Shown: positions 18,979 through 43,607 of the stretch, one piece after another | Position numbering within the stretch: the stretch's first letter is position 1 | Layout of the letters: each line of letters begins with the position of its first letter | Origin: a virus | Length of the DNA stretch: 64,000 nucleotides | Direction: 5' to 3' (one strand) | Virus record (IMG/VR): IMGVR_UViG_3300023245_000006 | Coordinates: 32,704-96,703 of that record | Position numbers and translations under genes: made by a program | The notes under the pieces: generated by a model | The model's database searches: none | What the model was told of the DNA's origin: nothing | Seen by the model: only the letters and a program-made list of their open reading frames with translations

Positions 18979-19842
18979 TTACTTCAAACAATTGTTGTAG
19001 TCCACTCGGGAAAAGTTAGGAACTCCGAGTCCGGTTAGATTGTTATAGAGGAATGTCACCGTCTTACCGATCCATTGATCTTTATCGTCCAAGAATTTTT
19101 TAGCCTCTTCTTGGGTTCCTTTGAACGAAGCATCAAATTCTTTTCCGTTCCATTTAAGAGTAATGACCTTACCCATCCCTGCCCAATTTCCGGTCCCTTC
19201 TTTGATATCTAAGATTTCGGCTTCTGAATCATCTGTCTGCTTCATTTTGAGAAGATTTGCAGATCGTTTGTTTTCATAAGGTGCATTAAGTAACCTAATG
19301 ATTGATCCTTCTTCACCATCCTCAACCAATTTTCCAAAATGCTTATAGATGTCTTCAAGGTTGTTACACATGACATTCTGAACCAATTTGATATAAGGAG
19401 TCGTTTCGAGTTCGATACTGATCCGAGCATATCTCGACATGTAAATAGATTCTTTGGTAACATTTCCTATATTGTATCCATCGTAAACAAAGAACCGAAC
19501 CCGTTGTTCACTGTTCTTCAAATGTTCTGGTGTGATATGGACACTCCGACGAATCAATTTCATCGTTTCGTTCAATTTATCTTTGAGACCATCACCCATC
19601 AATTCACCATCTAAAACCGCATCGGGATATACCGCGAAGAATCCTTTCAAAGCATCTTCGATATGAGGCACTGTCATATACTTTTCACCCTTACGAGTGT
19701 ATAGACCTTCTTTGGTTGCAATGCCGCGACAATTATGTGCTAAAATGCCATTAGCATAAAAGTTATGATTTCCTACGATTTCTAAATCGTATCGATTTTG
19801 CGGTGGTATCTTTTTTATAGATTTAATTTTTACAGTTTTCAT
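18979..19842 (-). CDS. DNA ligase C-terminal part with C-intein, 287 aa
   Basis: Residues 1-37 are a C-intein (RYDLEIVGNHNFYANGILAH, then Asn37) and Cys38 is the first extein residue. From there follows an ATP-dependent DNA ligase: YTRKGEKY, VLDGELMGDG (motif III), EEGSIIRL (motif IV), LLKMKQ (motif V) and an OB fold. It lacks the catalytic lysine, which lies in the separate N-part. Trans-splicing would join KYNG to CRGI and restore the ligase. It overlaps the homing nuclease gene by 20 nt. Confidence 0.9.
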   Translation of the reverse strand: MKTVKIKSIKKIPPQNRYDLEIVGNHNFYANGILAHNCRGIATKEGLYTRKGEKYMTVPHIEDALKGFFAVYPDAVLDGELMGDGLKDKLNETMKLIRRSVHITPEHLKNSEQRVRFFVYDGYNIGNVTKESIYMSRYARISIELETTPYIKLVQNVMCNNLEDIYKHFGKLVEDGEEGSIIRLLNAPYENKRSANLLKMKQTDDSEAEILDIKEGTGNWAGMGKVITLKWNGKEFDASFKGTQEEAKKFLDDKDQWIGKTVTFLYNNLTGLGVPNFSRVDYNNCLK

Positions 19843-20716
19843 TTATAATTTTCTTTATTTTATCTGGATTTTTTCGAATGTCAAGCTCCCATAAAACAAT
19901 CACTTTATATCCAAAATCTTCTATGTGATGAATTCGTATTTTATCCTTTTTTCGAATCTCTCTCGCCGTTTTATTTCCACCCCAAATCGGAATTATATCC
20001 GTTGCTTTATATATTTTGGGATTTCCATGCCAGATATCACCATTTATCTCTATAACAATCTTTTTAGATTCTATCAATATGTCCGGTCTGGGACAAAACT
20101 CTCGATTCAATTTTTTATTAAATTTAAAGAATCTATGTTGTGGTTCATATTCGAATTCTATGTTCAATTCTTTTAACATATCCTCTACGATAATTTGTAA
20201 CTTGCTTCTATATCCGCTATGTTTTGGACGATTTGGAAGATAATTTGGGTTTGTGACTCCATATTTTGTCATCAGAGTCTCTTTACTTTTTTCTTTCGTC
20301 GATTCTAACTGAAACACGTTCGCAATATTATACCTATTCTTTACTGTTTTATTCCTTTTTTTATAAAATCTGGAATTTTTCGACATAGGATGTTCCATAC
20401 CATATCTCGTATCACATGTTTCTTTAAATTTGTTGCGAACTTTGGGATTATTGGCAGAATCTACCATGGTCGGTGTATCTATTCCATAAGTTTTACAACG
20501 ATATATGATCGCCGCCGCAGACATTTTTATACCCCTCGGTTGAAGAATATTCTGGGCGATGAAATTCATACTAAATTTATGGAAATTCACGACTTCGTCC
20601 AAAAATTCTTTCGAGATTATCCCTTTTAAATATTTTCTTCGAGTCCAGTCATTTGGATGTCGAGATATAATCTCCATATCTATTTTCATTTTTTTAAATT
20701 TTTCTAAATGGTTCAC
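19823..20716 (-). CDS. Vsr-like (EDxHD) free-standing homing endonuclease, 297 aa
   Basis: Sits exactly between the two halves of the split-intein ligase. The C-terminal nuclease core is visible (RSKLQIIVEDML ... FCPRPDILIESKKIVIEING, then DIWHGNP and GYKVIVLWELDI), the pattern of very-short-patch-repair-like nucleases known from fractured split-intein genes. The N-terminal half (RHPNDWTRRKYLKGIISKEF) is probably the DNA-binding part. Start GTG at 20716, 5 nt after a TGTAAGTA late box. Confidence 0.85.
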   Translation of the reverse strand: MNHLEKFKKMKIDMEIISRHPNDWTRRKYLKGIISKEFLDEVVNFHKFSMNFIAQNILQPRGIKMSAAAIIYRCKTYGIDTPTMVDSANNPKVRNKFKETCDTRYGMEHPMSKNSRFYKKRNKTVKNRYNIANVFQLESTKEKSKETLMTKYGVTNPNYLPNRPKHSGYRSKLQIIVEDMLKELNIEFEYEPQHRFFKFNKKLNREFCPRPDILIESKKIVIEINGDIWHGNPKIYKATDIIPIWGGNKTAREIRKKDKIRIHHIEDFGYKVIVLWELDIRKNPDKIKKIINENCKN

Positions 20717-20721
20717 ATATA

Positions 20722-20729
20722 TACTTACA
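20722..20729 (-). promoter_or_regulatory. T4-late-like promoter box of homing nuclease
   Basis: TGTAAGTA, 5 nt before the GTG at 20716. The same arrangement is found at the other two intact nuclease genes near the tRNAs. Confidence 0.6.
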
Positions 20730-20748
20730 CATAAAATACAATGGTTTG

Positions 20749-21423
20749 TTATTTTTTTAATGCCAATACATCGCTATCCTTTATTTGATCGACCCGTCTC
20801 CAACACTTTAATCTTGGTAGATATAGCCTATGATTACCCGTGACCTGTATTTTTTTACCATTCATCAATTCTATTTCGAACCAATCGGGATTTTGTTCCT
20901 TTTCATCGAAACAATCTTTAAACCCCATTTTAATCGGTTTAAATTCGGTTTTCCTACTTACCATATTATAAGTCAAAACTTCACAATCGATATTATTCTC
21001 AACGATATCACCGATATTAATATCTCCTAGATTTGTAGTAATTTTTGTATCATAGGCAAAACATCCATTATACTTCACCTGTGAGACGCATGGATAAGTA
21101 ATCTTTTTGATACGATCCTTGAAGTTCTTGGCAAGCATAGGCTCGACGAATGACATCTTACCAATATCATCGATATTTTCAAAATACCCACCCGATTTCT
21201 TTTTCTTTTTCCACATGGCTTCGGCTTCGAATAGTGCCTGTGCTTCGGGATCGCGTTGATTGGCTCGACCAGCATTGGTCATAACCGTATCGGTCCATGC
21301 TGCCTCGACGATCTTTCCATCTTTCTGACCATAACGGGTGGTGAAAGATCCACCATCAACAATAACCTCCCATTGTTGAATTGCACCAGTCGAAGTGAGT
21401 GAATATAGAATAGGTAATTTCAT
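20749..21423 (-). CDS. DNA ligase N-terminal part with N-intein, 224 aa
   Basis: Residues 1-120 are ligase: an N-terminal WGR-like domain (QQWEVIVDGGSFTTRYG) and FVEPMLAKNF up to the active-site motif VKYNG with Lys117. Residue 121 is Cys, the first residue of an N-intein (CFAYDTKITTNLGDINIGDI ... VTGNHRLYLP) that ends at residue 224. The intein interrupts motif I itself, so splicing in trans is needed for activity. The promoter overlaps the end of the HAD gene. Confidence 0.9.
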   Translation of the reverse strand: MKLPILYSLTSTGAIQQWEVIVDGGSFTTRYGQKDGKIVEAAWTDTVMTNAGRANQRDPEAQALFEAEAMWKKKKKSGGYFENIDDIGKMSFVEPMLAKNFKDRIKKITYPCVSQVKYNGCFAYDTKITTNLGDINIGDIVENNIDCEVLTYNMVSRKTEFKPIKMGFKDCFDEKEQNPDWFEIELMNGKKIQVTGNHRLYLPRLKCWRRVDQIKDSDVLALKK

Positions 21424-28021: not shown

Positions 28022-29461
28022 TTAAATTGTTACTTGATTGTATCGTTCTGCATTTATGGTTTCCAACATGACATCCAGCGGAGAGATAGTGTTACCCGAA
28101 AGCAACGTCTTCAAGATAGATGGCGAACACCCGCTTACGAGACATGTTCCCTTATCATCCTTGGTGATCGGTGACTGACTGTTTCGGGCATTGACATTCC
28201 AGAACACCAAGTTTGGTTGCACATATCCTGCTGCTTCATACTTGAGACGGGTAGCCTCATAGTTTGTAACAGACTGTCCACGACAAGCCATATCGAATTC
28301 CATATCCGAAACAATGTAGAGGGTATCAGGCATATCTTCCTGCGGAACATCATTCCGCATTCCTGTAGTAAGAATCAGATCGAACGTTGCTTGCAAGTTA
28401 GTAGACATATCCCAATCCGCCCTTTCAAGGTTCTGAACCTTCTCTCGAATATTGTTTCCAACAACAGATTGAAGTGTTGGGGTTTCGGAGAACGTGAAGA
28501 ACTTGTTGGCAAAGGCACCCTTGTTCTTTTCGGCAAAATAAATTGCCAAAGAGATAGAGACTGCCATTGGTCTGCCAGTCATGCTACCGCTCACATCCGC
28601 AATAACGATTCCGTTGTGCTTGTTCTCTCCGATATAATCAGGTAGAGCATCCCAAAGGACATCCAAAGTATCACTCTTATCACATCGATTCAGAATCTTT
28701 TCAACAATTTCGTAAGGATACAATGTAGATGCATTGATCTTAGTTTCACCCTTCTTAACTGCCGCCAAAAAGTTTTCATAACGTTCCTTATCGTGCTTAC
28801 GGAAGGCATCTTTATAGGTCAAAGATGCCTTCGAAGGAACATGAGAATATTCGATCTGGTCCCACTTGTTTGCACAAAGAAGAGGCTCAACAACCTTTGT
28901 CTTCTCACGCATATGAGAAAGAGTTTGACGGTATTCCTTAGATGATAGTCCAAGGTGCTTACGCAAAATCGTAGCAAGTCGTCTAGTTGACTTAGAAGAA
29001 GTATTTTCCGAACAAGACCATTTGAAGATTAGAGAGTTCGTCTCGAACCCCTTGTTCCACTCATTACCCCAAAATTCTAGAGCCTTGTCCCAAGACTTGG
29101 TTCCTTCCAAGAAAAAAAGATCATCATATCGACCATAGAACACGATGTTTTCTAGATTATTTACGACAATAGTTGGATACTCATTGCCCAACCACTTGAT
29201 GATTGTTCGGAAAGTCTTACGCTCGCCCATTCCCCCTCGGGCGTCACGGAAATAAAACATGGTTTTTAGAGCCAGTTCTTGATCTTCGGCAAATGCCTTA
29301 GAAAACAAGGAAATAACATCTTCATCAGAACGAGAACGCATAGCACCACCTAGACCAAAGAAATCCAATAGATTACTCAAAGTAGACTTGTGAGTAAAGG
29401 CACCATTCTCGGTTAGAGTGAAATTTTGGTTCTTTTCGATAGAGTTGATTAGTGAGTTCAT
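28022..29461 (-). CDS. DUF2828-type, Ro60/TROVE-like vWA protein, 479 aa
   Basis: The N-terminal helical solenoid carries FYFRDARGGMGERKTFRTII and VFYGRYDDLFFL, typical of DUF2828/TROVE-like repeats. The C-terminal von Willebrand A domain has an intact MIDAS start (IVIADVSGSMTG), then a T residue strand and YIVSDMEF. Ro60-type proteins bind structured small RNAs such as Y RNA. The start follows a leader with 10-bp repeats and hairpins. Confidence 0.8.
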   Translation of the reverse strand: MNSLINSIEKNQNFTLTENGAFTHKSTLSNLLDFFGLGGAMRSRSDEDVISLFSKAFAEDQELALKTMFYFRDARGGMGERKTFRTIIKWLGNEYPTIVVNNLENIVFYGRYDDLFFLEGTKSWDKALEFWGNEWNKGFETNSLIFKWSCSENTSSKSTRRLATILRKHLGLSSKEYRQTLSHMREKTKVVEPLLCANKWDQIEYSHVPSKASLTYKDAFRKHDKERYENFLAAVKKGETKINASTLYPYEIVEKILNRCDKSDTLDVLWDALPDYIGENKHNGIVIADVSGSMTGRPMAVSISLAIYFAEKNKGAFANKFFTFSETPTLQSVVGNNIREKVQNLERADWDMSTNLQATFDLILTTGMRNDVPQEDMPDTLYIVSDMEFDMACRGQSVTNYEATRLKYEAAGYVQPNLVFWNVNARNSQSPITKDDKGTCLVSGCSPSILKTLLSGNTISPLDVMLETINAERYNQVTI

Positions 29462-35787: not shown

Positions 35788-35815
35788 AATATAAACATGT
35801 TTAGAGGATTGTCAA
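35788..35815 (-). promoter_or_regulatory. early-type promoter
   Basis: TTGACA (35810-35815), 16 nt, TATATT (35788-35793), 6 nt, ATG at 35781. Confidence 0.75.
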
Positions 35816-35823
35816 CAAATAAA

Positions 35824-35902
35824 TGGTGCAATAGGAGAATTTCGAAATCTCATGTGTCCTTTAACCTTTCTACGGCTCCGCAAGCCGAGGGTTTACTATT
35901 GC
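35824..35902 (-). ncRNA. tRNA-like RNA, type X copy 1
   Basis: Perfect acceptor GCAATAG/CTATTGC, T-like arm and encoded CCA, but the centre folds as AACC/GGTT around a CTC/GAG hairpin rather than as D and anticodon arms. Closely similar to 41434-41512, sharing the AAGGACxCAT segment. Confidence 0.55.
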
Positions 35903-35946
35903 ATATTTAAACCATATGAAACTACTTATTATTTAAAAAAGTTTTA

Positions 35947-36096
35947 CCAGCTACGGGGAATATCAGCAAAGCAGGTGAGTGAGAATTTCATCTGGACTCT
36001 TTATTGATCCCGAGTGCCCAATCGTCCTTGGTCTCCTTTCTCAAAGGGAGATTTCATGATCAGGTGCGTATAGCGTGTGTACTGCTATACGGCTGG
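35947..36096 (-). ncRNA. candidate structured RNA a
   Basis: CCAGC/GCTGG closes about 150 nt with internal hairpins GTATAGC/GCTATAC (36068-36090) and TCTCC/GGGAGA. No reading frame. Function unknown. Confidence 0.4.
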
Positions 36097-36102
36097 CAAA
36101 AT

Positions 36103-36176
36103 TGGCGATCCGTGCGAGAATCAAACTCGCGATAAAACACTGAGAATGTTTTGTGTTATCATTACACTAATGGATC
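36103..36176 (-). tRNA. tRNA-Glu(CTC)
   Basis: Anticodon loop TTCTCAG in AAACA/TGTTT, T arm GCGAG/CTCGC, encoded CCA. Confidence 0.8.
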
Positions 36177-36193
36177 GAAATTAAAAATGCACC

Positions 36194-36291
36194 CTCTCAA
36201 ACGTCTAGTCTTTTTTAATCACGGTCTCGATAACCGCTTTTTATTTAACCCATCTAGGCCATACCCCAATGTTTGTCTCGTTTTGTGAGAG
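36194..36291 (-). ncRNA. candidate structured RNA b
   Basis: CTCTC/GAGAG with an adjacent AAACG/CGTTT pairing closes about 98 nt between two tRNA positions. No reading frame. Confidence 0.35.
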
Positions 36292-36301
36292 AAATTGTAT
36301 G

Positions 36302-36367
36302 CTGCGAACCTTGGACTCGAACCAAGACTATACCTGATTCGGGGTGACTACCATTCCCTAGTTCGAA
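36302..36367 (-). pseudogene. degenerate tRNA, 66 nt
   Basis: Good T arm (CTTGG/CCAAG) and mostly paired acceptor, but the D and anticodon region is about 7 nt too short and no anticodon loop can be drawn. Confidence 0.45.
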
Positions 36368-36411
36368 TTAAAAAATTTTTCTTGTTATGTGCATATTACG
36401 CCAAAAGAGAA

Positions 36412-36519
36412 TCAGACCTTACCATTTACGGGGTATCCTTTTACTTCCACGGTTAGACGAAATCCAACATGAACGTCAATATCTAACTTTGACACGCTCA
36501 TGTTATCACAGACACCCAT
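36412..36519 (-). CDS. possible small protein, 35 aa, maybe a broken longer gene
   Basis: Frame MGVCDNMSVSKLDIDVHVGF then RLTVEVKGYPVNGKV. The same frame continues upstream to an ATG at 36582 but is cut by one TAG (MTITFKE-stop-SETRVSDINGPYF). Either a nonsense-mutated gene or chance. Confidence 0.35.
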   Translation of the reverse strand: MGVCDNMSVSKLDIDVHVGFRLTVEVKGYPVNGKV

Positions 36520-36639
36520 AAAATATGGACCGTTGATATCGGAGACTCGCGTTTCGCTCTACTCTTTAAAGGTAATTGTCATAGACAATCAGAATTTATC
36601 ATTCGTTGCTGCTTCTAAGCCAACCTCTAACAAGAAAAA

Positions 36640-36727
36640 TGGCGGATCATAATCGCATCGAACGATTAGCCTTTTAGAGCTACTACTATTTTCAAAATAG
36701 TTTGAGGAGCCTACCTCAGTATGATCC
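36640..36727 (-). tRNA. tRNA-Ser(TGA)
   Basis: Perfect acceptor GGATCAT/ATGATCC, anticodon loop TTTGAAA in ACTAT/ATAGT, long variable arm, T arm AATCG/CGATT, encoded CCA. Confidence 0.88.
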
Positions 36728-36773
36728 ATATAATTTTTTCGGGCGGTTAAAGCCCCATTTAAATTATATGAAA

Positions 36774-36948
36774 GAGAGAACCAAGGTGTCTTTCGCGTAA
36801 CACTCCACGACTAGTTCTTGCTGTATCAAAGCCCTGTTTTCACACATGGCTTGGTTAGGATCATCCTTCGATCAATTCAATGATCTACTGTGGTATGACC
36901 CAGACCCCGATATACTATATGCAGGGTATTTAGTTTTTTGGTTCTCTC
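36774..36948 (-). ncRNA. candidate structured RNA c
   Basis: An 11-bp perfect long-range stem (GAGAGAACCAA/TTGGTTCTCTC) closes about 175 nt with hairpins GATCA/TGATC, AGCC/GGCT and GTGT/ACAC (loop with GCGAAAG). No reading frame. Confidence 0.5.
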
Positions 36949-36965
36949 AATCAAATTCAAAATTA

Positions 36966-37038
36966 ATTCTTCGATAGGGTTAGAACCTACATCTCTTGTA
37001 TACTATCACAAGGCTCTGGGGCATTGAGCTACGAAGAA
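36966..37038 (-). tRNA. tRNA-like gene with 8-nt anticodon loop
   Basis: Perfect acceptor TTCTTCG/CGAAGAA, D stem GCTC/GAGC, T arm GTAGG/CCTAT. The anticodon stem CTTGT/ACAAG encloses eight bases (GATAGTAT), so the anticodon cannot be assigned. No CCA. Confidence 0.55.
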
Positions 37039-37069
37039 ATTTAATAAAAATGGTCCCCATCACGGTGAT

Positions 37070-37202
37070 TCTCCGCGCCAAAGTCCCCACGGACTTCGTT
37101 CTATTATGTTAAACTATCAAGGGATTTAAAATTAATTGAGCATCTACAGACCGTTCTGTATATCCATCCCCAAGGGACAAATTGGAGCCACAGGCGCGGA
37201 GA
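37070..37202 (-). ncRNA. candidate structured RNA d
   Basis: A 10-bp perfect stem TCTCCGCGCC/GGCGCGGAGA closes about 133 nt with hairpins AGTCC/GGACT and ACAGA/TCTGT. No reading frame. Confidence 0.5.
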
Positions 37203-37303
37203 CCTCTCGGCAATCTCCAACTCTTAGACATTTCTGAACAAGTGTGTTGGCCATCATTCTCACTTAACACTCAAATTTAATGGTAGGTGTTCCCTACCTG
37301 ATG

Positions 37304-37392
37304 CACTGCAACTAGGATTCGAACCTAGATACCTCTTTCGAGGAATACGCGAAGTTAACAGCTTCGTCCCTTACCAGTTAGGGTATCGCAGT
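37304..37392 (-). tRNA. tRNA with Asn anticodon (GTT) and long variable arm
   Basis: Acceptor ACTGCGA/TTGCAGT, D stem CCCT/AGGG, anticodon loop CTGTTAA in CGAAG/CTTCG, T arm CTAGG/CCTAG. The variable region is about 21 nt and forms a CCTC/GAGG arm, a class II feature not expected for Asn. Confidence 0.8.
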
Positions 37393-37399
37393 AAAAACT

Positions 37400-37451
37400 A
37401 GATGCAGTTTTTTGTGTTTAATATACAATTTTTTGATTGCTGTATGCACCT
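37400..37451 (-). ncRNA. structured hairpin, copy C
   Basis: Ends AGATGC and GCACCT can pair; the loop holds an A-run and CAGCAATCAA, as in copies A and B at 29506-29627. It lies between a tRNA and the divergent homing nuclease gene. Confidence 0.45.
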
Positions 37452-37500
37452 AAATTCTGAAAATAAACTTGCACTTTAGGTGGATTTCTACCCCGTTTAG

Positions 37501-37508
37501 TGTAAGTA
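37501..37508 (+). promoter_or_regulatory. T4-late-like promoter box of homing nuclease
   Basis: TGTAAGTA, 5 nt before the ATG at 37514. Confidence 0.6.
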
Positions 37509-37513
37509 GTTAT

Positions 37514-38380
37514 ATGAATATTATATCCGATATAGCAAAATTAAAAAGTCATGATCTCGTTGAGTTAAAATGTGAAAGATGCGAAAAACAATTCTTTTCC
37601 AAAAAACGAATTGTATTGGATAAAAGGAGAATTTTGAAATCTAAAAATCATATGCTTTTCTGTTCTCGGGGATGTTTAGAAATACACTCTGGTAATCGAA
37701 TTTTATGCAAATGTGCCCAATGTGATAAAGATGTATGTAAACCATTAAAAGATTTTAAGAAATCCTCTAATCATTTTTGCACATCTTCGTGTGCTGCGAA
37801 ATTTAATATTCCACGAAGGGAATCTATATGGACCCCTGAATTGAGGAATAAAATGTCGGCTTATGCGAAAAAGAATTACACACAACCTATACATATTAAA
37901 ACAGGAACTTATAAAACATGTCTGATATGTGATAAAGAATTTTACTGCTCACCGTCAAGCAGTCAAAGAAAATTTTGTAGTTTACCGTGTTCATATAAAA
38001 ATCCTAATCTCGGTGGATATAGAGAAAATTCCACCCGACTACATCGTTGTTTTTATAATGGTATCAAAATGGATTCGGGTTCCGAAGCGCAATTTGCCGA
38101 ACTTTTGGATGATAATAATATCAAATGGTCTAAAAACACAACTACATTCTTTCATTACATTTACCGAGGGAAAAATAAGAAATATTATCCAGATTTTTAT
38201 CTCGAAGATTTGAAGTTGTGGGTGGAAATTAAAGGAAAATTTTATATCGAGGATTGGTTGCCTAATAAAATCCAATCTGTGAAAGATGATAATCAGAAAA
38301 TCATTCTTATTGATTCGGATCATTTGAAACATAAAGAAGAAATTTTGAGAAGAATATCAACAGAATCTTCGCGTATTTAA
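37514..38380 (+). CDS. zinc-finger homing endonuclease with PD-(D/E)xK/Vsr-like core, 288 aa
   Basis: Several Cys4-type fingers (LKCERCEKQFF, FCSRGCLE, CAQCDKDVCK, CLICDKEFYC) precede a nuclease core: SGSEAQFAELLDDNNIKWSK, then KKYYPDFYLEDLKLWVEIKG and KIILIDSDHLK. Start at 37514 (MNIISDIAKLKSHD), 5 nt after the late box, not the longer frame from 37469. Opposite in strand to the surrounding tRNAs. Confidence 0.82.
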   Translation: MNIISDIAKLKSHDLVELKCERCEKQFFSKKRIVLDKRRILKSKNHMLFCSRGCLEIHSGNRILCKCAQCDKDVCKPLKDFKKSSNHFCTSSCAAKFNIPRRESIWTPELRNKMSAYAKKNYTQPIHIKTGTYKTCLICDKEFYCSPSSSQRKFCSLPCSYKNPNLGGYRENSTRLHRCFYNGIKMDSGSEAQFAELLDDNNIKWSKNTTTFFHYIYRGKNKKYYPDFYLEDLKLWVEIKGKFYIEDWLPNKIQSVKDDNQKIILIDSDHLKHKEEILRRISTESSRI

Positions 38381-38383
38381 AGG

Positions 38384-38457
38384 CGGAACCAAAGGGACTC
38401 GAACCCTCAAATCATCTCCGTGACAGGGAGGCGCATTTTCCAGCTTGCTATGATTCC
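38384..38457 (-). tRNA. tRNA-Asp(GTC), copy 1
   Basis: Acceptor GGAATCA/TGGTTCC, anticodon loop CTGTCAC, standard T loop. The 3' end is CCT, not CCA. Confidence 0.82.
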
Positions 38458-38542
38458 AGAAATTGGAGATCAAGTTGGGACTTTTACCCCTATCTTCACA
38501 CACTCCCGTCTCAACAAGTGCATCAGTTTTCTTTTACGTAAA

Positions 38543-38619
38543 TGGCGGAACCGATGGGACTCGAACCCACACGTAGCTTCCTTGACAGGGAAGTGAATTT
38601 TCCAGCTTTCTACGATTCC
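38543..38619 (-). tRNA. tRNA-Asp(GTC), copy 2
   Basis: Acceptor GGAATCG/CGGTTCC, anticodon loop CTGTCAA in CTTCC/GGAAG, encoded CCA. Near-duplicate of copy 1; the spacers share TTTTCTTTTACGTAAA. Confidence 0.85.
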
Positions 38620-38716
38620 ATAAATTGTCCCTATATACGGACTTTTACCGTTCGATAATGTTTCACATCTTGTTGCCCTATAAGGAAAGGCCATCGAATT
38701 TTCTTTTACGTAAAAA

Positions 38717-38791
38717 TGGTGGGCGTAGCAGGACTTGAACCTACACTTGGAGAGGACTTTGCCTGATATACATTTCATCTCCCATACGCTA
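38717..38791 (-). pseudogene. degenerate tRNA
   Basis: Normal length, good T arm and CCA, but only five of seven acceptor pairs and no regular anticodon stem-loop. Confidence 0.45.
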
Positions 38792-38794
38792 AAT

Positions 38795-38869
38795 TGGTGA
38801 TCTGCCTCCGAATCGAACGGAGTCATGGAAGGATGTAAACCTTCGGCCTTCCCACTTGGCGAGCAGACC
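38795..38869 (-). tRNA. tRNA-Val(TAC)
   Basis: Anticodon loop TTTACAT in GAAGG/CCTTC, D stem GCC/GGC, T arm CTCCG/CGGAG, encoded CCA. Confidence 0.87.
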
Positions 38870-38875
38870 ATAAAA

Positions 38876-39103
38876 TTATTTGTTTTTTTGTGACCATTCG
38901 TAAATATACCGAATACCATCATAGATAAAATAAAAACCAAAAAAGATGATCGGGATAAGAATGATAGCGGCCAATAATTGCCACCCAAAGGTGTAAAAAG
39001 CTACCGCAACAATAAACAACAACATAAACAAAAACAGACACCAAAATATAAGGTCGATCATTTCAAATATAAAACTCACCAAGTTTGCAATAATTTTCTT
39101 CAT
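38876..39103 (-). CDS. small membrane protein, 75 aa
   Basis: Two hydrophobic stretches (LIFWCLFLFMLLFIVAVAFY and LLAAIILIPIIFFGFYFIY) and a charged C terminus. A protein gene embedded in the tRNA array with its own strong promoter; role unknown. Confidence 0.75.
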   Translation of the reverse strand: MKKIIANLVSFIFEMIDLIFWCLFLFMLLFIVAVAFYTFGWQLLAAIILIPIIFFGFYFIYDGIRYIYEWSQKNK

Positions 39104-39109
39104 AGGGTG

Positions 39110-39137
39110 AAGATATCAAAATTTCAGATATTGTCAA
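39110..39137 (-). promoter_or_regulatory. early-type promoter
   Basis: TTGACA (39132-39137), 16 nt, TATCTT (39110-39115), 6 nt, ATG at 39103. Confidence 0.7.
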
Positions 39138-39145
39138 TTAAAAAG

Positions 39146-39221
39146 TGGAGTCATCTCTCGGTATCGAACCGAGCAACAAACCTTTTGCAGAGGTTGGGGT
39201 TCACCTGCTCCCTCAGAGGAC
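39146..39221 (-). tRNA. tRNA-Cys(GCA)
   Basis: Anticodon loop CTGCAAA in AACCT/AGGTT, T arm CTCGG/CCGAG, U discriminator as expected for Cys, encoded CCA. Confidence 0.87.
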
Positions 39222-39231
39222 TAAAATTCTT

Positions 39232-39365
39232 TAAACATGGTGGGATTTGGACCCACTCCTGCATTTGGAGGATTCATCTCTAAGAATAATGGATTTCGCA
39301 TCACTAGTAGATGTTCCAGAGTTCTTTCGATAATGCTGCGTCATTTACATTTCCGCCTCATGTTT
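39232..39365 (-). ncRNA. tRNA-Leu-like RNA with about 46-nt internal insertion
   Basis: Perfect acceptor AAACATG/CATGTTT, T arm GTGGG/CCCAC, class II variable arm TCCT/AGGA and a Leu-like D arm. An extra hairpin (GCATT/GATGC) sits between the D arm and a poor anticodon arm (TAG). Intron-like insertion or degenerate tRNA. Confidence 0.45.
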
Positions 39366-39370
39366 AAAAT

Positions 39371-39445
39371 TGGAGCGGGTGGGGAGGGACGATCTCCCAT
39401 CTGGGCATAGGCAATGCCCCATAATAGCCGTTATACGACACCCGC
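39371..39445 (-). tRNA. tRNA-Gly(GCC)
   Basis: Perfect acceptor GCGGGTG/CACCCGC, anticodon loop TTGCCTA in GGGCA/TGCCC, encoded CCA. Unusual T loop. Confidence 0.8.
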
Positions 39446-39450
39446 TTAAA

Positions 39451-39524
39451 TGGTGGAGCATATGATAATCGAAATCATAGACAAGAATTTTGCAAGAATT
39501 CTCCGCTGACCACAGCTATGCCCC
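39451..39524 (-). tRNA. tRNA-Ala(TGC)
   Basis: Acceptor GGGGCAT/ATGCTCC, anticodon loop CTTGCAA in GAATT/AATTC, D stem GCTG/CAGC, encoded CCA. Confidence 0.87.
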
Positions 39525-39560
39525 ATAAAATTTTTCCATGCTCTAATTCGAGCGGAATAA

Positions 39561-39638
39561 TGGCCGCTAAGATCTGATTCGAACAGATTCCCTCATTTTT
39601 TCAGAATGTCGTGCGAGTTCCAACTACACCACTTAGCG
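39561..39638 (-). tRNA. tRNA-Phe(GAA)
   Basis: Perfect acceptor CGCTAAG/CTTAGCG, anticodon loop CTGAAAA, T arm ATCTG/CAGAT, encoded CCA. Confidence 0.85.
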
Positions 39639-39651
39639 TTTTTAAATTATC

Positions 39652-39723
39652 GACTGAACCAGTTTTCTTTGAATCGCCACCACCTTCCGGCAAATCCCTT
39701 AGATGGGGAGGACTCTATCAGTC
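39652..39723 (-). ncRNA. candidate structured RNA e
   Basis: GACTGA/TCAGTC closes 72 nt with a GCC/GGC hairpin; tRNA-sized but no T arm or anticodon seen. Confidence 0.3.
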
Positions 39724-39728
39724 AAAAT

Positions 39729-39808
39729 TGGTATCCCGCGAGGATTAGCAGCCCTCATTATTTTTCCTTGGAAGGGAAACGCCATTAAGCTATTTAGGCG
39801 AGCGAGAC
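39729..39808 (-). tRNA. tRNA-Gly(TCC)
   Basis: Anticodon loop CTTCCAA in TTTCC/GGAAA, D stem CGCC/GGCG, acceptor GTCTCGC/GCGGGAT with two G-U pairs, encoded CCA. Confidence 0.78.
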
Positions 39809-39832
39809 ATATAAATGGTTAAGAGACAACTC

Positions 39833-39959
39833 TGTGATCAAATTTCTCAAAAGACTCCCCGAATTACGCATACATTTAGAGGCGCGGGGAGTATGATAAA
39901 TTGAACTGTTTAAGGTTTATCCTCTTTCGCAAACAGGGTTGCGTCATTTGATTATCACA
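39833..39959 (-). ncRNA. candidate structured RNA f
   Basis: Long-range stem TGTGAT/ATCACA with an adjoining AAAT/ATTT pairing closes about 127 nt; internal hairpin ACTCCCCG/CGGGGAGT (39854-39892) and CTGTTT/AAACAG. No reading frame. Confidence 0.45.
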
Positions 39960-40025
39960 AATAATAACGATTCGGTGAGGTAGACATTTATGAAGTCCGT
40001 CTTGTTTCCAATTCCCATCCAGACT

Positions 40026-40110
40026 TGGTGCGAACGGAGGGACTTGAACCCACACTCCTTGCGGAACCAGATCCTAAATCTGGCGCGTCTGCCGATTTCG
40101 CCACGCTCGC
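40026..40110 (-). tRNA. tRNA-Leu(TAG)
   Basis: Acceptor GCGAGCG/CGTTCGC, anticodon loop TTTAGGA in CCAGA/TCTGG, long variable arm, encoded CCA. Confidence 0.87.
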
Positions 40111-40132
40111 ATAAATACAACATTTCAAAGCA

Positions 40133-40198
40133 AGTTGCCAGCTTTCACCATAGCTTCCACCATAGAGTTTGCAATCTATTTAGCGTTTTATCGCAACT
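40133..40198 (-). pseudogene. degenerate tRNA-like sequence, 66 nt
   Basis: Acceptor AGTTGC/GCAACT pairs and an ATAGA/TCTAT stem carries an 8-nt loop with GCA, but no normal T loop is present. Confidence 0.35.
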
Positions 40199-40328
40199 GC
40201 ATAACTCAGAAAAGGTGCGGGGTTGTTGCACTTAGTCAACTATCATATACCGCGCAGAAAGTTTACGAAACAAAAAGGATTTCACGAACGTTCTTTACAG
40301 GTGGAATCGAACTAATCCCAAAGTCATA

Positions 40329-40408
40329 TGGTCGGAAATCGGGCCATCGAATCCCGCTGAATATCGTGATCCCAAATCACGCGACCACGCCAAGCAGTCC
40401 CATTTCCG
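40329..40408 (-). tRNA. tRNA-Pro(TGG)
   Basis: Perfect acceptor CGGAAAT/ATTTCCG, anticodon loop TTTGGGA in CGTGA/TCACG, encoded CCA. Confidence 0.85.
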
Positions 40409-40418
40409 TTAAAATGTA

Positions 40419-40493
40419 TGGTAGGAGATACGGCGTCTGAATCCGTTATCTGGACTTATGAAATCCGAAGTTTACCGCATAACTTAATCTCCC
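40419..40493 (-). tRNA. tRNA-Met(CAT), copy 1
   Basis: Acceptor GGGAGAT/ATCTCCT, anticodon loop TTCATAA, D stem AAGTT/AACTT, encoded CCA. Could be elongator Met or an Ile(AUA)-reading CAT tRNA. Confidence 0.82.
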
Positions 40494-40580
40494 ATTTTTA
40501 AATTGGCACTAGTCTTTCCTAGATGTCAACAGAATCGTTTTGTAGCTATTCTGAAATTAAAATTTAAATAGTAGCAAAAA

Positions 40581-40665
40581 TGGTAGCGGGGGCGGCGTTC
40601 GAATCCGATGAAAGGGCTTATTCAGTAATCACATCATGATTACTGAATGAGACCCCCGAGTTACC
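40581..40665 (-). ncRNA. tRNA-like RNA with long acceptor helix and 12-bp hairpin
   Basis: Ends pair as GGTA/TACC plus CGGGGG/CCCCCG; a perfect 12-bp hairpin (40620-40648) replaces the D/anticodon region. CCA encoded. It overlaps the 3' end of the 74-aa gene, so the hairpin could instead be its terminator. Confidence 0.35.
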
Positions 40666-40853
40666 ACCTTCTCTACCCTGCGATTAAAATGTTTCAAATA
40701 TTTTCTATAAAATTTGTTAAATTCTGGATTATCAGACACATTTAAGATCAACGCTTTGTAGCCTCTTTTCTCGCAAAAATATCGCAAGGCGGTGTTTTTT
40801 TCTTCGAAAAACCTCGTGTAGTTATTTAACGTTTCACCATGCTTCCATATCAT
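40629..40853 (-). CDS. small basic hypothetical protein, 74 aa
   Basis: Starts MIWKHGETLNNYTRFFEEKN; contains ALILNVSDNPEFNKFYRKYL and a basic C terminus. It resembles a fragment of a larger enzyme. A TAGAAGTA box lies 3 nt before the ATG. The final codons form one arm of a 12-bp hairpin. Confidence 0.5.
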   Translation of the reverse strand: MIWKHGETLNNYTRFFEEKNTALRYFCEKRGYKALILNVSDNPEFNKFYRKYLKHFNRRVEKVVTRGSHSVIMM

Positions 40854-40879
40854 TTTTACTTCTACGACTACTCAACAAA

Positions 40880-40956
40880 TGGTAGCGAGTCCTAGGAATC
40901 GAACCTAGCTCTCAAGCTTATGAAACTTGAATGGTCAACCAGACCACCTGACCGCA
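40880..40956 (-). tRNA. tRNA-Met(CAT), copy 2
   Basis: Anticodon loop TTCATAA in CAAGC/ACTTG, T arm CTAGG/CCTAG, D stem GGTC/GACC. Acceptor paired with one bulge. Confidence 0.75.
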
Positions 40957-40962
40957 ATAAAT

Positions 40963-41104
40963 TGGTGCATCCAGTGGGATTCGAACCTTCTGTGTTTATT
41001 GTCGTAACACTTCCTCATGAGGTCGTGAAACTATATTAGACTTTTTAATTGTGCGTTCCTTGGGGTCTTTCACAGATCATGATCTGATCGAACCTTGCAG
41101 CACC
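40963..41104 (-). ncRNA. candidate structured RNA g with tRNA-like 3' end
   Basis: 3' part reads like a tRNA T arm (TTCGAAT loop), acceptor strand and CCA; the 5' end pairs only as GGTGC/GCACC. Internal palindromes CCTCATGAGG and AGATCATGATCT. About 140 nt, no reading frame. Confidence 0.35.
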
Positions 41105-41119
41105 GTCTCGTTAAAAATG

Positions 41120-41159
41120 TTTTGGTGGGCGAAGAGTTGTGTTCGCCTACGCACCAAAA
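41120..41159 (-). ncRNA. strong isolated stem-loop
   Basis: TTTGGTG/CACCAAA outer stem and GGCGAA/TTCGCC inner stem with an 8-nt loop; could be a terminator or processing signal between tRNAs. Confidence 0.55.
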
Positions 41160-41165
41160 AATGTT

Positions 41166-41243
41166 TGGTCCTCCGTGCTGGCGTCGATCCAGCTACCTCG
41201 CTCTTATAAAGAGCTTGCTCTGCCAATCGTGAGCTAACGGAGG
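41166..41243 (-). tRNA. tRNA-Ile(TAT)
   Basis: Perfect acceptor ACGGAGG/CCTCCGT (plus-strand reading), anticodon loop TTTATAA, D stem GCTC/GAGC, T arm GCTGG/CCAGC, encoded CCA. Confidence 0.85.
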
Positions 41244-41256
41244 TTAGAAAATTATG

Positions 41257-41327
41257 TCTCTATAGCTGGAATCGAACCAACGAAGAGCCTTTATCAAAGG
41301 CTTATTATACCATTTAATTATACAGAG
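41257..41327 (-). tRNA. tRNA-Ile(GAT)
   Basis: Acceptor CTCTGTA/TATAGAG, anticodon loop TTGATAA in AGCCT/AGGCT, T arm GTTGG/CCAGC. The 3' end is followed by CAT. Confidence 0.83.
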
Positions 41328-41365
41328 GTTGAAAATACATCCGATCAGTTTCGCGAGACTCTACA

Positions 41366-41429
41366 TGGTAGTAATCATTGGTCGCATGAACCTTCAAACG
41401 TGCAGGCTTTATCGTTTAGATAAATTATT
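41366..41429 (-). pseudogene. degenerate tRNA
   Basis: Acceptor AATAATT/GATTACT and encoded CCA, but the centre is about 14 nt too short and the T arm is poor. Confidence 0.4.
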
Positions 41430-41433
41430 CAAA

Positions 41434-41512
41434 TGGTGCGTCGGGGGAATTTCGAAATCCCATGCGTCCTTTACCGTTTCAATCGGTTCGAAGCCGAAGC
41501 GGATACCAACGC
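41434..41512 (-). ncRNA. tRNA-like RNA, type X copy 2
   Basis: Acceptor GCGTTGG/CCGACGC, T-like arm, CCA; the centre folds as CCG/CGG around a TTCG/CGAA hairpin. Related to 35824-35902. If read as a tRNA the loop would be ATTGAAA (TGA, Ser). Confidence 0.5.
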
Positions 41513-41516
41513 GAAA

Positions 41517-41601
41517 TGGTGGGTGATCAGGAAATCGAATCCTGCGATCATTACGAGCGGGGTTTACAATCCCGACTGCCTCCTTAACAGTTTAATCACC
41601 C
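41517..41601 (-). tRNA. tRNA-Tyr(GTA)
   Basis: Perfect acceptor GGGTGAT/ATCACCC, anticodon loop TTGTAAA, long variable arm as in bacterial Tyr, encoded CCA. Confidence 0.87.
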
Positions 41602-41615
41602 AAAAATCTAAAATG

Positions 41616-41686
41616 CTCCCCGTCGTGGAATCGAACCACGCCTGTCTGGGCCAAAACCAGATGTGCAACCGATACACCTACAGGGA
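41616..41686 (-). tRNA. tRNA-Gln(TTG)
   Basis: Acceptor TCCCTGT/ACGGGGA, anticodon loop TTTTGGC in TCTGG/CCAGA, T arm CGTGG/CCACG. The 3' end is followed by CAT. Confidence 0.85.
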
Positions 41687-41705
41687 ATAATACTAAAATT
41701 TTCTA

Positions 41706-41969
41706 AGCGATAGAGTTAGATATCTACATCCAAAAATTAGACTTGGCTTTTGAGATCAATGGTATATTTCATTACTCTCCCATCTACGGGGAATCTAAAT
41801 TGTTAAATATTCAAAGAAATGATACGCGAAAATCAAAAAATGTTTCGAGGATGGTATAGAATTGTGTGTTATAAACACTACCGAACAGATGAAATTCACT
41901 GAATTGTCGTCATTAAAATATTTCCAAATTATCCAAGATAAGATTAATGAAAAATGGTGTGGTATATGA
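41706..41969 (+). pseudogene. frameshifted C-terminal relic of a homing endonuclease
   Basis: Frame 1 reads ELDIYIQKLDLAFEINGIFH then YSPIYGESKLLNIQRNDTRK; after a shift near 41830 it continues IKKCFEDGIELCVINTTEQM. This is the E-I-N-G-x-x-H-Y...E-x-K-L..I..ND-R-K...GIELCIIDT pattern of a common phage endonuclease family. The N terminus is missing. Confidence 0.7.
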
Positions 41970-42030
41970 TATTCGAAATCATCCTGTCTCTTTCACAAAG
42001 AGAAGTGCGAAACCACTACACTAATACCAC
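41955..42030 (-). tRNA. tRNA-His(GTG)
   Basis: Perfect acceptor GTGGTAT/ATACCAC, anticodon loop TTGTGAA in TCTCT/AGAGA, T arm ATGAT/ATCAT, encoded CCA. Confidence 0.87.
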
Positions 42031-42046
42031 CATAAAAACATTCAAC

Positions 42047-42081
42047 CCGTATGCACACATACGGATAGTTTCTAGAAACTA
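42047..42081. other. two tandem stem-loops
   Basis: CCGTATG/CATACGG (4-nt loop) at 42047-42064 followed by TAGTTTC/GAAACTA at 42066-42081, between tRNA-His and the next tRNA. Possible processing or termination signal. Confidence 0.5.
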
Positions 42082-42114
42082 ATAACTACACATTGTTAAG
42101 GCAAAGTATCGAAA

Positions 42115-42201
42115 TGGCATGGCTGACGGGAATCGAACCCGCTTCCCATAAGGGACACTGCTTGAAAGGCAGGTCAGACTCTCCGACTTCTGCGCAACCA
42201 C
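42115..42201 (-). tRNA. tRNA with Glu anticodon (TTC) and long variable arm
   Basis: Acceptor GTGGTTG/CAGCCAT, D stem CAGA/TCTG, anticodon loop CTTTCAA, normal T loop, CCA. The variable region folds as TCCC/GGGA (about 13 nt), a class II feature not expected for Glu. Confidence 0.78.
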
Positions 42202-42218
42202 ATATAAAGTTTTTGAAA

Positions 42219-42314
42219 TGGCATGGATATAAGAAATCGAATCTTATCGTAGTCATTTCTTCCGATTTGACACAAAGGATTTGGAGTCCTTCCGGCTACC
42301 TTAGCCTTATCCAT
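42219..42314 (-). tRNA. tRNA with Trp anticodon (CCA) and 28-nt variable arm
   Basis: Perfect acceptor ATGGATA/TATCCAT, anticodon loop CTCCAAA in AAGGA/TCCTT, T arm TAAGA/TCTTA, encoded CCA. The extra arm has a GTCA/TGAC stem. Canonical Trp tRNAs have a short variable loop. Confidence 0.8.
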
Positions 42315-42340
42315 ATATAAATGTAAACGATCATTATCAA

Positions 42341-42419
42341 TGGTGGCGCAGACAGGAGTCGAACCTGTTATCCCAAAGCTTATGAGACTTGGATTATTAT
42401 TCCGTTTCACTCCCGCGAC
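42341..42419 (-). tRNA. tRNA-Met(CAT), copy 3
   Basis: Anticodon loop CTCATAA, T arm ACAGG/CCTGT, acceptor GTCGCGG/CTGCGCC with one mismatch, encoded CCA. Confidence 0.78.
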
Positions 42420-42427
42420 AAATTGTA

Positions 42428-42448
42428 TGGAGCCAAGACGGGGAATCG
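42428..42448 (-). pseudogene. 3' remnant of a tRNA cut by the HNH gene
   Basis: CCA, discriminator, acceptor strand and T stem up to the T loop (ending at the conserved CGATT) are present; then the HNH cassette begins and the rest of the tRNA is absent. Confidence 0.4.
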
Positions 42449-42449
42449 G

Positions 42450-42457
42450 GGTAAGTA
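42450..42457 (+). promoter_or_regulatory. T4-late-like promoter box of HNH gene
   Basis: GGTAAGTA, 5 nt before the ATG at 42463. Confidence 0.55.
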
Positions 42458-42462
42458 TTAGT

Positions 42463-43170
42463 ATGAAGATGCTCGTACCAAATATTTCAGATGTTGTTCG
42501 CGGCTCAAAAGTTCCATGCGAATGCTTAAATTGTAAGAAACCTTTTTTCGTTAGTATATCACTAGCACGAAGGGGATTGAAAGGGACAAAAAGGGTCGAT
42601 TTTTGTTCCGTAGAGTGTTCACGACGAGCGAAGACTCTCACCAAGTCTATTATTTGTAAAAATTGCGGAGAAAGTCGGATTATCCAAAATAGCCAAATTG
42701 GTGATAATAATTTCTGTTCAAGGTCTTGTTCGGCAACTTTCAACAACCATTTAAGAAAAATTACTAACACTAAAACAAAAAATTGTGAGAATTGCAAAGA
42801 CTCATTTTCTTTCATCGAGAGGGAAAATCCAAGAAAATTTTGTTCGCAGATTTGCACAAGAAAATATAAACAACAAGAGTTGATTAGTAATTGGAAAGAT
42901 GGGTCCATCAATGGGTGGACGGGAAAGACTATCCGAATTAAAGTATTCGTAAGAAGATATCTTTTTGATAAATATGAAAACAAATGTTGTAAATGTGGTT
43001 GGAGTCAAATTAACCCAACTAGCAAATCTATTCCTTTGGAGGTCAACCATATTGACGGTGATGCTTTGAATTGTTCTGAGGATAACCTTGAACTAATTTG
43101 TCCAAATTGTCATAGTTTGACTCCAAACTTTAGGAGACTTAACAAGAGTGGCAAACGCAATCGATCATGA
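42463..43170 (+). CDS. zinc-finger HNH homing endonuclease, 235 aa
   Basis: Repeated Cys4-type fingers (CECLNCKKPFFV, FCSVECSRR, CKNCGESR, NFCSRSC, CENCKDSF, FCSQIC) precede an HNH core: CCKCGWSQINP, LEVNHIDGDALNCSEDNLEL then ICPNCHSLTPNF. Start 42463 (MKMLVPNISDVVRG) is set by the late box 5 nt upstream. The finger architecture resembles the nuclease at 37514 though the catalytic domains differ. Inserted among tRNAs on the opposite strand. Confidence 0.87.
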   Translation: MKMLVPNISDVVRGSKVPCECLNCKKPFFVSISLARRGLKGTKRVDFCSVECSRRAKTLTKSIICKNCGESRIIQNSQIGDNNFCSRSCSATFNNHLRKITNTKTKNCENCKDSFSFIERENPRKFCSQICTRKYKQQELISNWKDGSINGWTGKTIRIKVFVRRYLFDKYENKCCKCGWSQINPTSKSIPLEVNHIDGDALNCSEDNLELICPNCHSLTPNFRRLNKSGKRNRS

Positions 43171-43243
43171 GCTTCCTGTCGGTGTCGAACCGACTTCCCC
43201 TCATTACAAGTGAGGAATTCTAGCCAGCGTGAACTAAGGAAGC
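43170..43243 (-). tRNA. tRNA-Thr(TGT)
   Basis: Perfect acceptor GCTTCCT/AGGAAGC, anticodon loop CTTGTAA in CCTCA/TGAGG, T arm GTCGG/CCGAC. The 3' end is followed by CAT. Confidence 0.87.
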
Positions 43244-43250
43244 GTAAAAA

Positions 43251-43272
43251 GTCGGCTTCTGGTTTACCAGAT
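43251..43272. repeat. 22-bp direct repeat, copy 1 (hairpin element)
   Basis: Begins GTCGGCTTCTGG; contains TCTGGT/ACCAGA and pairs with a downstream AGCCG, giving CGGCT/AGCCG around the inner hairpin. Second copy at 43486-43507. Confidence 0.7.
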
Positions 43273-43534
43273 TACGCGAGCCGTTCGCAAGTTTCAAATT
43301 TACAAGTCCTAGCAACATTTTGATCGCGATTTTTGTTGTTGCTTCAACGGATTGTCAGACCTATTTCTGACCTATCAGATTCTCCGTCAGAGTCGATGTT
43401 TATTCCAGCCACCTACATACTAATCGACGAACTCTGTAGGTAAAAAAACAGGTGCAATCGGCCACTATGCGACCACGGCAAAAATGTCGGCTTCTGGTTT
43501 ACCAGATCATCGGGCCGAAACGATATTTAACATT
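43273..43534 (-). ncRNA. candidate structured non-coding stretch h
   Basis: About 260 nt with no gene between tRNA-Thr and tRNA-Arg, holding ACCTACA/TGTAGGT and other stems and bounded by copies of a hairpin element. Function unknown. Confidence 0.3.
43486..43507. repeat. 22-bp direct repeat, copy 2 (hairpin element)
   Basis: Identical to 43251-43272; here TCGGC pairs with downstream GCCGA around the same inner TCTGGT/ACCAGA hairpin. Confidence 0.7.
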
Positions 43535-43607
43535 TGGTATCCCTAGAAGGAGTCGAACCTTCCCTAGTTGCTTAGAAGGCATCTGTCCAGAATCCGCTGG
43601 CAGGGAT
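43535..43607 (-). tRNA. tRNA-Arg(TCT)
   Basis: Acceptor ATCCCTG/TAGGGAT, anticodon loop CTTCTAA, T arm GAAGG/CCTTC, encoded CCA. First tRNA of the array on the minus strand. Confidence 0.85.

Follow-up and report, generated by a model that had tools for sequence, protein, structure and literature searches.

The 64,000-nucleotide (nt) stretch analysed here (the window) is part of a 96.7-kb phage record of IMG/VR (IMGVR_UViG_3300023245_000006) and carries an array of transfer RNA (tRNA) genes at about 33.3-43.6 kb. We believe it fairly probable that this array is of the type known from phage T5, with stable RNAs interleaved between the tRNAs, and that one of these RNAs carries the hairpin of an abiF antitoxin RNA (39854..39891, minus strand) acting as a mimic against the AbiF of the host. 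The identity of the hairpin as an abiF RNA is well supported at the level of sequence and predicted structure; by analogy with known systems, its most likely role is that of an orphan antitoxin mimic disarming host AbiF. The first-pass annotation had proposed that folded non-tRNA stretches of the array could be Y-RNA-like partners of a Ro-like protein, intron-bearing or very divergent tRNAs, or a new phage RNA class; an abiF antitoxin RNA is outside these options.

ARAGORN predicts 22 tRNAs, all of them on the minus strand, and it is therefore on this strand that the RNAs of the array are to be read. The Rfam family RF03085 (abiF RNA), used alone in a search of the 96.7-kb record, aligns over its full length (1-37) to 39854..39891 with 25.6 bits (E=0.001). 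The motif comprises P1 (CTCCCC/GGGGAG), P2 (CGC/GCG), the conserved GCCTCT loop side and AATTCGG; the GCCUCU and AANUCGG nucleotides are conserved in its alignments, and P1 has a pairing probability of at least 0.99 in the predicted fold. RCd22 of C. difficile, an experimentally characterised RNA with two abiF motifs that is also present in phage phiC2, gives 37.6 and 19.5 bits there against the same family, so that the 25.6 bits of the window lie between the scores of these two studied motifs. The hairpin is part of a predicted RNA unit (39833..39959, minus strand) closed by TGTGA/TCACA and CAAAT/ATTTG, with a folding z-score of -1.7 (here and below z-scores compare the minus strand with shuffled sequence unless the plus strand is stated).

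A homologous block is found in phage G014 (L060:5288-5333; 85% over 46 nt, E=3e-8) between tRNA-Trp and tRNA-Met, at a locus that was fetched for an HNH endonuclease shared with the window (42340-43170) and not for the abiF motif. This copy scores 34.7 bits against RF03085, and its P1 is CCTCCC/GGGAGG, i.e., two compensatory pairs relative to the window. The linker TTCAATTTATCATA directly 5' of the motif (39892..39905, minus strand) has the aligned counterpart TCCAATTTATCAAA in G014. The motif and the 5' linker are thus conserved between the two phages; the closing stem of 39833-39959 is a prediction for the window.

A search pattern derived from the motif, GCGCCTCTN{4,10}GCGNAANTCGGG, matches 26 IMG/VR contigs, and 5-6 of the 6 P1 pairs are retained in 24 of the 26. 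The pattern left the outer three P1 pairs free; it fixed P2 and the inner P1 pairs, which are hence uninformative. In the alignment of 19 copies 99.4% of the cells are paired, three pairs (13 cells) are changed on both sides, and the covariation score was reached by 0 of 500 shuffles. The covariation check that the first-pass annotation had suggested for the folded stretches thus gave a positive result for the abiF hairpin in 39833-39959; among the phages searched, homologs for such an alignment were found for this motif only. Besides the stem, the loop and internal-loop nucleotides (GCCTCT, AA.TCGG) are kept across phages. The motif ends shortly before the 5' end of a tRNA in G014 (9 nt), G029 (10 nt), G041 (9 nt) and G044 (8 nt), and the abiF RNA of cyanophage S-CREM1 ends 4 nt before tRNA-Gly. 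A blastn search for abiF RNA in GenBank phages gave no match; such a search is insensitive for 37-nt motifs and misses that of S-CREM1.

In bacteria the abiF hairpin serves as an RNA antitoxin: it binds AbiF, a HEPN ribonuclease, and keeps it silent. A bacterial scan with the motif pattern returned 88 stretches, and the complete P1 and motif are kept in 11 of the 80 examined; at 9 of these 11 loci an open reading frame (ORF) of 304-341 amino acids (aa) starts 6-48 nt downstream. Seven of the 9 adjacent downstream genes tested are Abi_2, the family of AbiF. The other two motifs directly precede a RhuM-family gene (L159:4350-5372) and a patatin-like phospholipase gene (L107:4705-5661). No Abi_2 gene was found in the 24 phage records that carry the phage-type motif (the record of the window and 23 others); as a control, the search recovered the gene in phiC2 and in three bacterial genomes. 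A position upstream of an abiF (Abi_2) gene therefore does not apply to the motif of the window. Since the antitoxin hairpin is present and the AbiF gene is absent from the record, an action in trans is most likely for this RNA. RCd22 binds AbiF directly and neutralises it in trans, for which the stem is required (PMC12373285).

We presume that minus-strand transcripts would carry the tRNAs together with non-tRNA RNAs of 100-175 nt, that tRNA processing would free the latter, and that RNase P acting at the 5' end of the next tRNA would produce the 3' end of the abiF RNA. The abiF RNA would then occupy host AbiF and block its RNase activity, in the manner of pseudo-ToxI on ToxN; in a variant of the same idea, the phage RNA would replace a labile host antitoxin after host shut-off. 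In either case host AbiF would be kept or made inactive during infection, to the benefit of the phage.

A number of points weigh against this interpretation. The match to RF03085 first appeared below threshold (E=0.48) in an all-family Rfam scan, and its 25.6 bits are below the gathering score of 37 bits. The window has only one abiF motif vs two in RCd22, an objection softened by the Prevotellaceae AbiF complex, which contains two separate non-coding RNA copies (PMC12373285). Only three pairs can test the covariation, the rest being set by the pattern. The first tRNA downstream of the abiF RNA, tRNA-Gly(UCC) (39729..39808, minus strand), is 45 nt from the motif, vs 4-10 nt in the five other phages. 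The phage records may be incomplete, and an AbiF gene could sit elsewhere in the genome. The expression of 39833-39959 is a prediction from the sequence, and AbiF in the host is an assumption. Finally, the other candidate RNAs gave no homologs among the phages searched, and the support from covariation is limited to the abiF motif.

The candidates in question are the remaining stretches of the six that the first-pass annotation had described as folded and closed by long-range stems. The gaps of the array do hold folding sequence at these places, but the closing stems are barely above chance, and 40963-41104 folds only as well as shuffled sequence. Two minus-strand candidates clearly fold better than shuffled sequence: 36774..36948 (175 nt, multibranched, 11-bp perfect closing stem, z -4.2) and 37070..37202 (133 nt, 10-bp perfect closing stem, z -3.0, and -4.9 on the plus strand). 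The effect is moderate for 39833-39959, for the weak candidate 36194..36291 (98 nt, minus strand, z -2.3) and for 35947..36096 (150 nt, minus strand, 6 nt past tRNA-Glu, z -1.65, and -3.6 on the plus strand), which has the 5' hairpin CGTATAGC...GCTATACG; 40963..41104 (minus strand, z -0.6) is at chance level. No relatives of 36774..36948, 37070..37202 or 36194..36291 were found. The stable RNAs of T5 themselves score only from -0.95 to -2.8, overlapping the stretches of the window, and therefore such z-scores neither prove nor exclude RNAs of this kind.

More stem pairing than in dinucleotide shuffles had also been expected. In 35800-43600 there are 5 perfect Watson-Crick stems of at least 10 bp that close 90-190 nt, vs 1.1 +/- 1.0 in the shuffles, and 3 of at least 11 bp, vs 0.35. 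The excess is thus about 5-fold for the former, but several of these stems are coding or repeat sequence: of the five, the first belongs to a homing-endonuclease gene, another to a palindromic repeat in a spacer, and a third forms the acceptor stem of a tRNA-like unit. Between 0 and 4 such stems of at least 10 bp occur in other 7.8-kb blocks of the window, and a long closing stem alone is therefore weak evidence. We dropped the closing-stem counts as evidence, since the excess over chance is modest and comes in part from coding or repeat sequence; taken as a whole, the array shows no clear surplus of structure over coding sequence. The short repeats ATTCCCCGTAGNTGG at 35947, 36422 and 41780 were also dropped, as this number is expected by chance in 11 kb.

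Of the tRNA-like 3' ends reported for some of the stretches, we find the one in 40963..41104 (T-arm GAAGG-TTCGAAT-CCCAC and ACCA, with broken acceptor and T stem) and none in the other five. This stretch directly precedes an initiator-type tRNA and, with tRNA-Met, matches the tRNA-Pro/fMet and Asn/fMet pairs of T5-like phages; a decayed or divergent tRNA is more probable here than a closed non-coding RNA. The six stretches have no match to the RF00005 cloverleaf at E<=5, and no evidence was found for intron-bearing tRNAs. Very divergent tRNAs do account for part of the array (an Arg-like pair, Gly-UCC, Pro-UGG, Trp-CCA and others that ARAGORN did not predict); among the six stretches they explain the 3' end of 40963-41104 and none of the other five. 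The first-pass annotation missed a tRNA-like RNA at 39230..39368 (minus strand, 139 nt) with the T-arm GTGGG-TCCAAAT-CCCAC and a 10-bp perfect acceptor stem, in which a body of about 100 nt replaces the D and anticodon arms and which is conserved as the T-arm only. Also absent from its list are a further tRNA or tRNA-like unit at 40581-40670 and a folded gap of about 290 nt at 43244-43534 (z -3.8), which is flanked by a 27-nt direct repeat (96%) with the hairpin TCTGGTAAACCAGA at 43246-43272 and 43481-43507.

If the hairpin were unrelated to AbiF, all the stretches could be T5-like stable RNAs, and the abiF-like hairpin a generic module, e.g., for processing or stability. The seven RNAs of T5 do match in size, architecture and location, their folding z-scores are comparable, and the structural features agree even without homology. 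We nevertheless consider this explanation rather unlikely: GCCTCT and AA.TCGG are kept across phages, not the stem alone, and the same pattern retrieves the leaders of Abi_2 genes in bacteria. That the non-tRNA stretches lack a function and represent for the most part decayed tRNA genes and spacers is likewise unlikely. The acceptor or T stem is broken in several tRNAs of the array, 40963-41104 being a case of this kind, and the array-wide structure is not above the coding background; however, two stretches have z of about -3 to -4, and two segments (the abiF block and 36553-36627) are conserved in the arrays of unrelated phages.

The hairpin could also belong to an AbiF system of the phage itself (superinfection defence or a toxin-antitoxin module), the toxin gene being off the contig or of another family. 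The contig is incomplete, phiC2 has an intact AbiF with its RNA, and two of the bacterial copies precede genes other than Abi_2. All known systems place the RNA directly upstream of the gene, whereas tRNAs follow it here, and the 0 of 24 records with Abi_2 point in the same direction; we regard this explanation as quite improbable. A Y-RNA-like role, in which the stretches would be partners of the Ro-like RNA-binding protein (phrog_850; DUF2828 + DUF7788, by family assignment) as the first-pass annotation had suggested, is very improbable indeed. The protein is encoded 6 kb away (28022..29461, minus strand), but its family occurs in 682 GenBank phages of many kinds. The YrlA and Y RNA families (RF02553, RF00019) gave no match in the array or near the gene, in a search of doubtful sensitivity; this negative is weak because Rfam Y RNA is also blank beside the Ro-like gene of phage LeBron, used as a control.

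The second conserved segment (36553..36627, minus strand) is 73% identical over 75 nt to a segment in the array of phage G029 (L089:11302-11373, minus strand; E=2e-6, and 7e-5 in a larger search), which overlaps the end of an HNH gene. Within it, GAGGTTGGCTTAGAAGCAGC agrees at 19/20 positions with E. coli 23S ribosomal RNA (rRNA) 1055-1074 (GTPase-centre helix 43, the L11/thiostrepton loop). In G029 the identity to 23S rRNA is 23/24 nt, and in both phages TTTAAAGA then follows, as in 23S. Rfam gave no LSU-rRNA match for this block, and the 23S reading therefore rests on local sequence identity only. The segment could be a mimic of the GTPase centre or a relic of a homing-endonuclease target. 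The HNH-type homing endonuclease gene of the window (42340..43170, plus strand) abuts tRNA-Thr(TGT) (43169-43243, minus strand). Several unrelated phages (L059, L060, L061) have homologs in their arrays that likewise abut a tRNA-Thr(TGT) of opposite strand, which suggests that tRNA-Thr is the homing site of this endonuclease family.

At least nine tRNAs were added to the 22 of ARAGORN by T-arm and acceptor. Among those missed are, all on the minus strand, Arg-UCU (43607-43535), Trp-CCA (42314-42219), Pro-UGG (40408-40329) and the above tRNA-Gly(UCC), which has a 7-bp acceptor, D, anticodon and T arms, CCA and the T-loop CTGCTAA. Two divergent Arg-like tRNAs, 35824..35902, which has no normal D arm, and 41434..41512 (both minus strand), are paralogs (80% over 55 nt); matches to a DNA pattern built from this pair are confined to the window's own contigs. 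Either the pair that closes the T loop is an A-G or T-T mismatch, or a normal D arm is lacking, in 35824-35902, 41434-41512, 40419-40493, 40329-40408 and 40581-40670. The window tRNAs that pass the Rfam cut-off are unusually divergent (36-57 bits), vs mostly 50-78 bits for the ordinary, dispersed tRNAs of G006, G008 and G013, its kin by structural genes. Megablast found no close relatives in GenBank phages. IMG/VR was searched with DUF2828, with neighbouring genes, with rIIA and with a structural protein of 1507 aa; outside the window's record the array was found only in a second contig, which holds all of it with 100% identity.

The window further encodes two RNA ligases, rIIA/rIIB and many homing endonucleases, in addition to the Ro-like protein. 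At 18979-21423 its DNA ligase gene is in two pieces with a homing-endonuclease ORF (19823-20716) between them (intron or intein). Among the other contigs, L017:3585-7649 encodes a ribonucleotide reductase of 1354 aa, an internal segment of which matches phage terminase families, probably via a shared intein. ARAGORN predicts transfer-messenger RNA genes in phage contigs with tRNA arrays at L040:11196-11653, L060:6604-7036 and L089:5489-5882, with the tags ADEEMLLAA, ...YALAA and ...SLAAA, respectively.

The closest known counterpart of the array as a whole is that of T5 (AY543070), in which seven stable RNAs are annotated between the tRNAs, as they also are in BF23 and DT57C: RNA1 (144 nt), RNA2 (125), RNA2H (172), RNA3 (73), RNAI (107), RNAIII (106) and RNAIV (103). 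They are annotated as "stable RNA with unknown functions" or as tRNA-like, are conserved in hundreds of T5-like phages, and mostly fold as a closing stem around a branched interior. The window is like T5 in the location between tRNAs, in an array with HNH homing-endonuclease genes, in the sizes of 73-172 nt and in some tRNA-like ends; by kind, it has the dense tRNA array, the non-tRNA structured units and the homing endonucleases of a T5-type array. RNA2H with its 10-bp closing stem resembles 36774..36948, without homology. Covariance models of RNA2H, RNAIV and RNAI gave only fragments in the window (cmsearch with filters off, best E 0.05-0.18), and RNA1, RNA2, RNA3 and RNAIII only T-arm or short chance matches (nhmmer --max). 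The two arrays are thus of the same kind with no demonstrable homology, and the earlier picture of structured non-coding RNAs in tRNA slots fits, but their class is not new, given the T5 precedent. Unlike the window, T5 has no stable RNA matching abiF RNA. GOLLD and ROOL, the large structured non-coding RNAs near phage tRNAs, are several times larger than the window RNAs and have no Rfam match in the window.

Compared with RCd22, the window shares the 37-nt hairpin with its conserved loop nucleotides and a score between those of the two RCd22 motifs; it differs in having a single motif, no toxin gene and a site upstream of tRNAs in an array. The same kind of site is occupied in the lytic cyanophage S-CREM1, where the annotated abiF RNA (OP535465 10531-10567) lies directly upstream of tRNA-Gly in a tRNA array; its P1 (CCCCCT/CTGGGG) is unlike that of the window. 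In the part of the S-CREM1 report available to us, this small RNA is given as an Rfam hit only, with no tRNA-array or counter-defence reading (PMC9964418).

To our knowledge, the stable RNAs of phage tRNA arrays have lacked an assigned function since those of T5 and T4; an orphan AbiF antitoxin among them would be a concrete function that is cheap to test. As AbiF is related to the ancestor of Cas13, RNAs that inhibit it in nature would be of wide interest. The observations suggest that phages may have coupled counter-defence RNAs to tRNA processing. As a tentative and somewhat doubtful extension, phage tRNA arrays might be general platforms for RNA counter-defence, with the inter-tRNA RNAs as host-RNA mimics processed out together with the tRNAs and the T5 stable RNAs in the same functional class; its examples would be the abiF antitoxin here and in at least five unrelated phages and, perhaps, the mimic of the 23S GTPase centre. 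For the abiF RNA of the window, a functional precedent is pseudo-ToxI of PhiTE, a phage mimic of an RNA antitoxin that suppresses the defensive toxin ToxN (PMC3475682); it differs in belonging to the type III system ToxIN, in having arisen as a lab-selected repeat expansion, and in the unrelated RNA and toxin.

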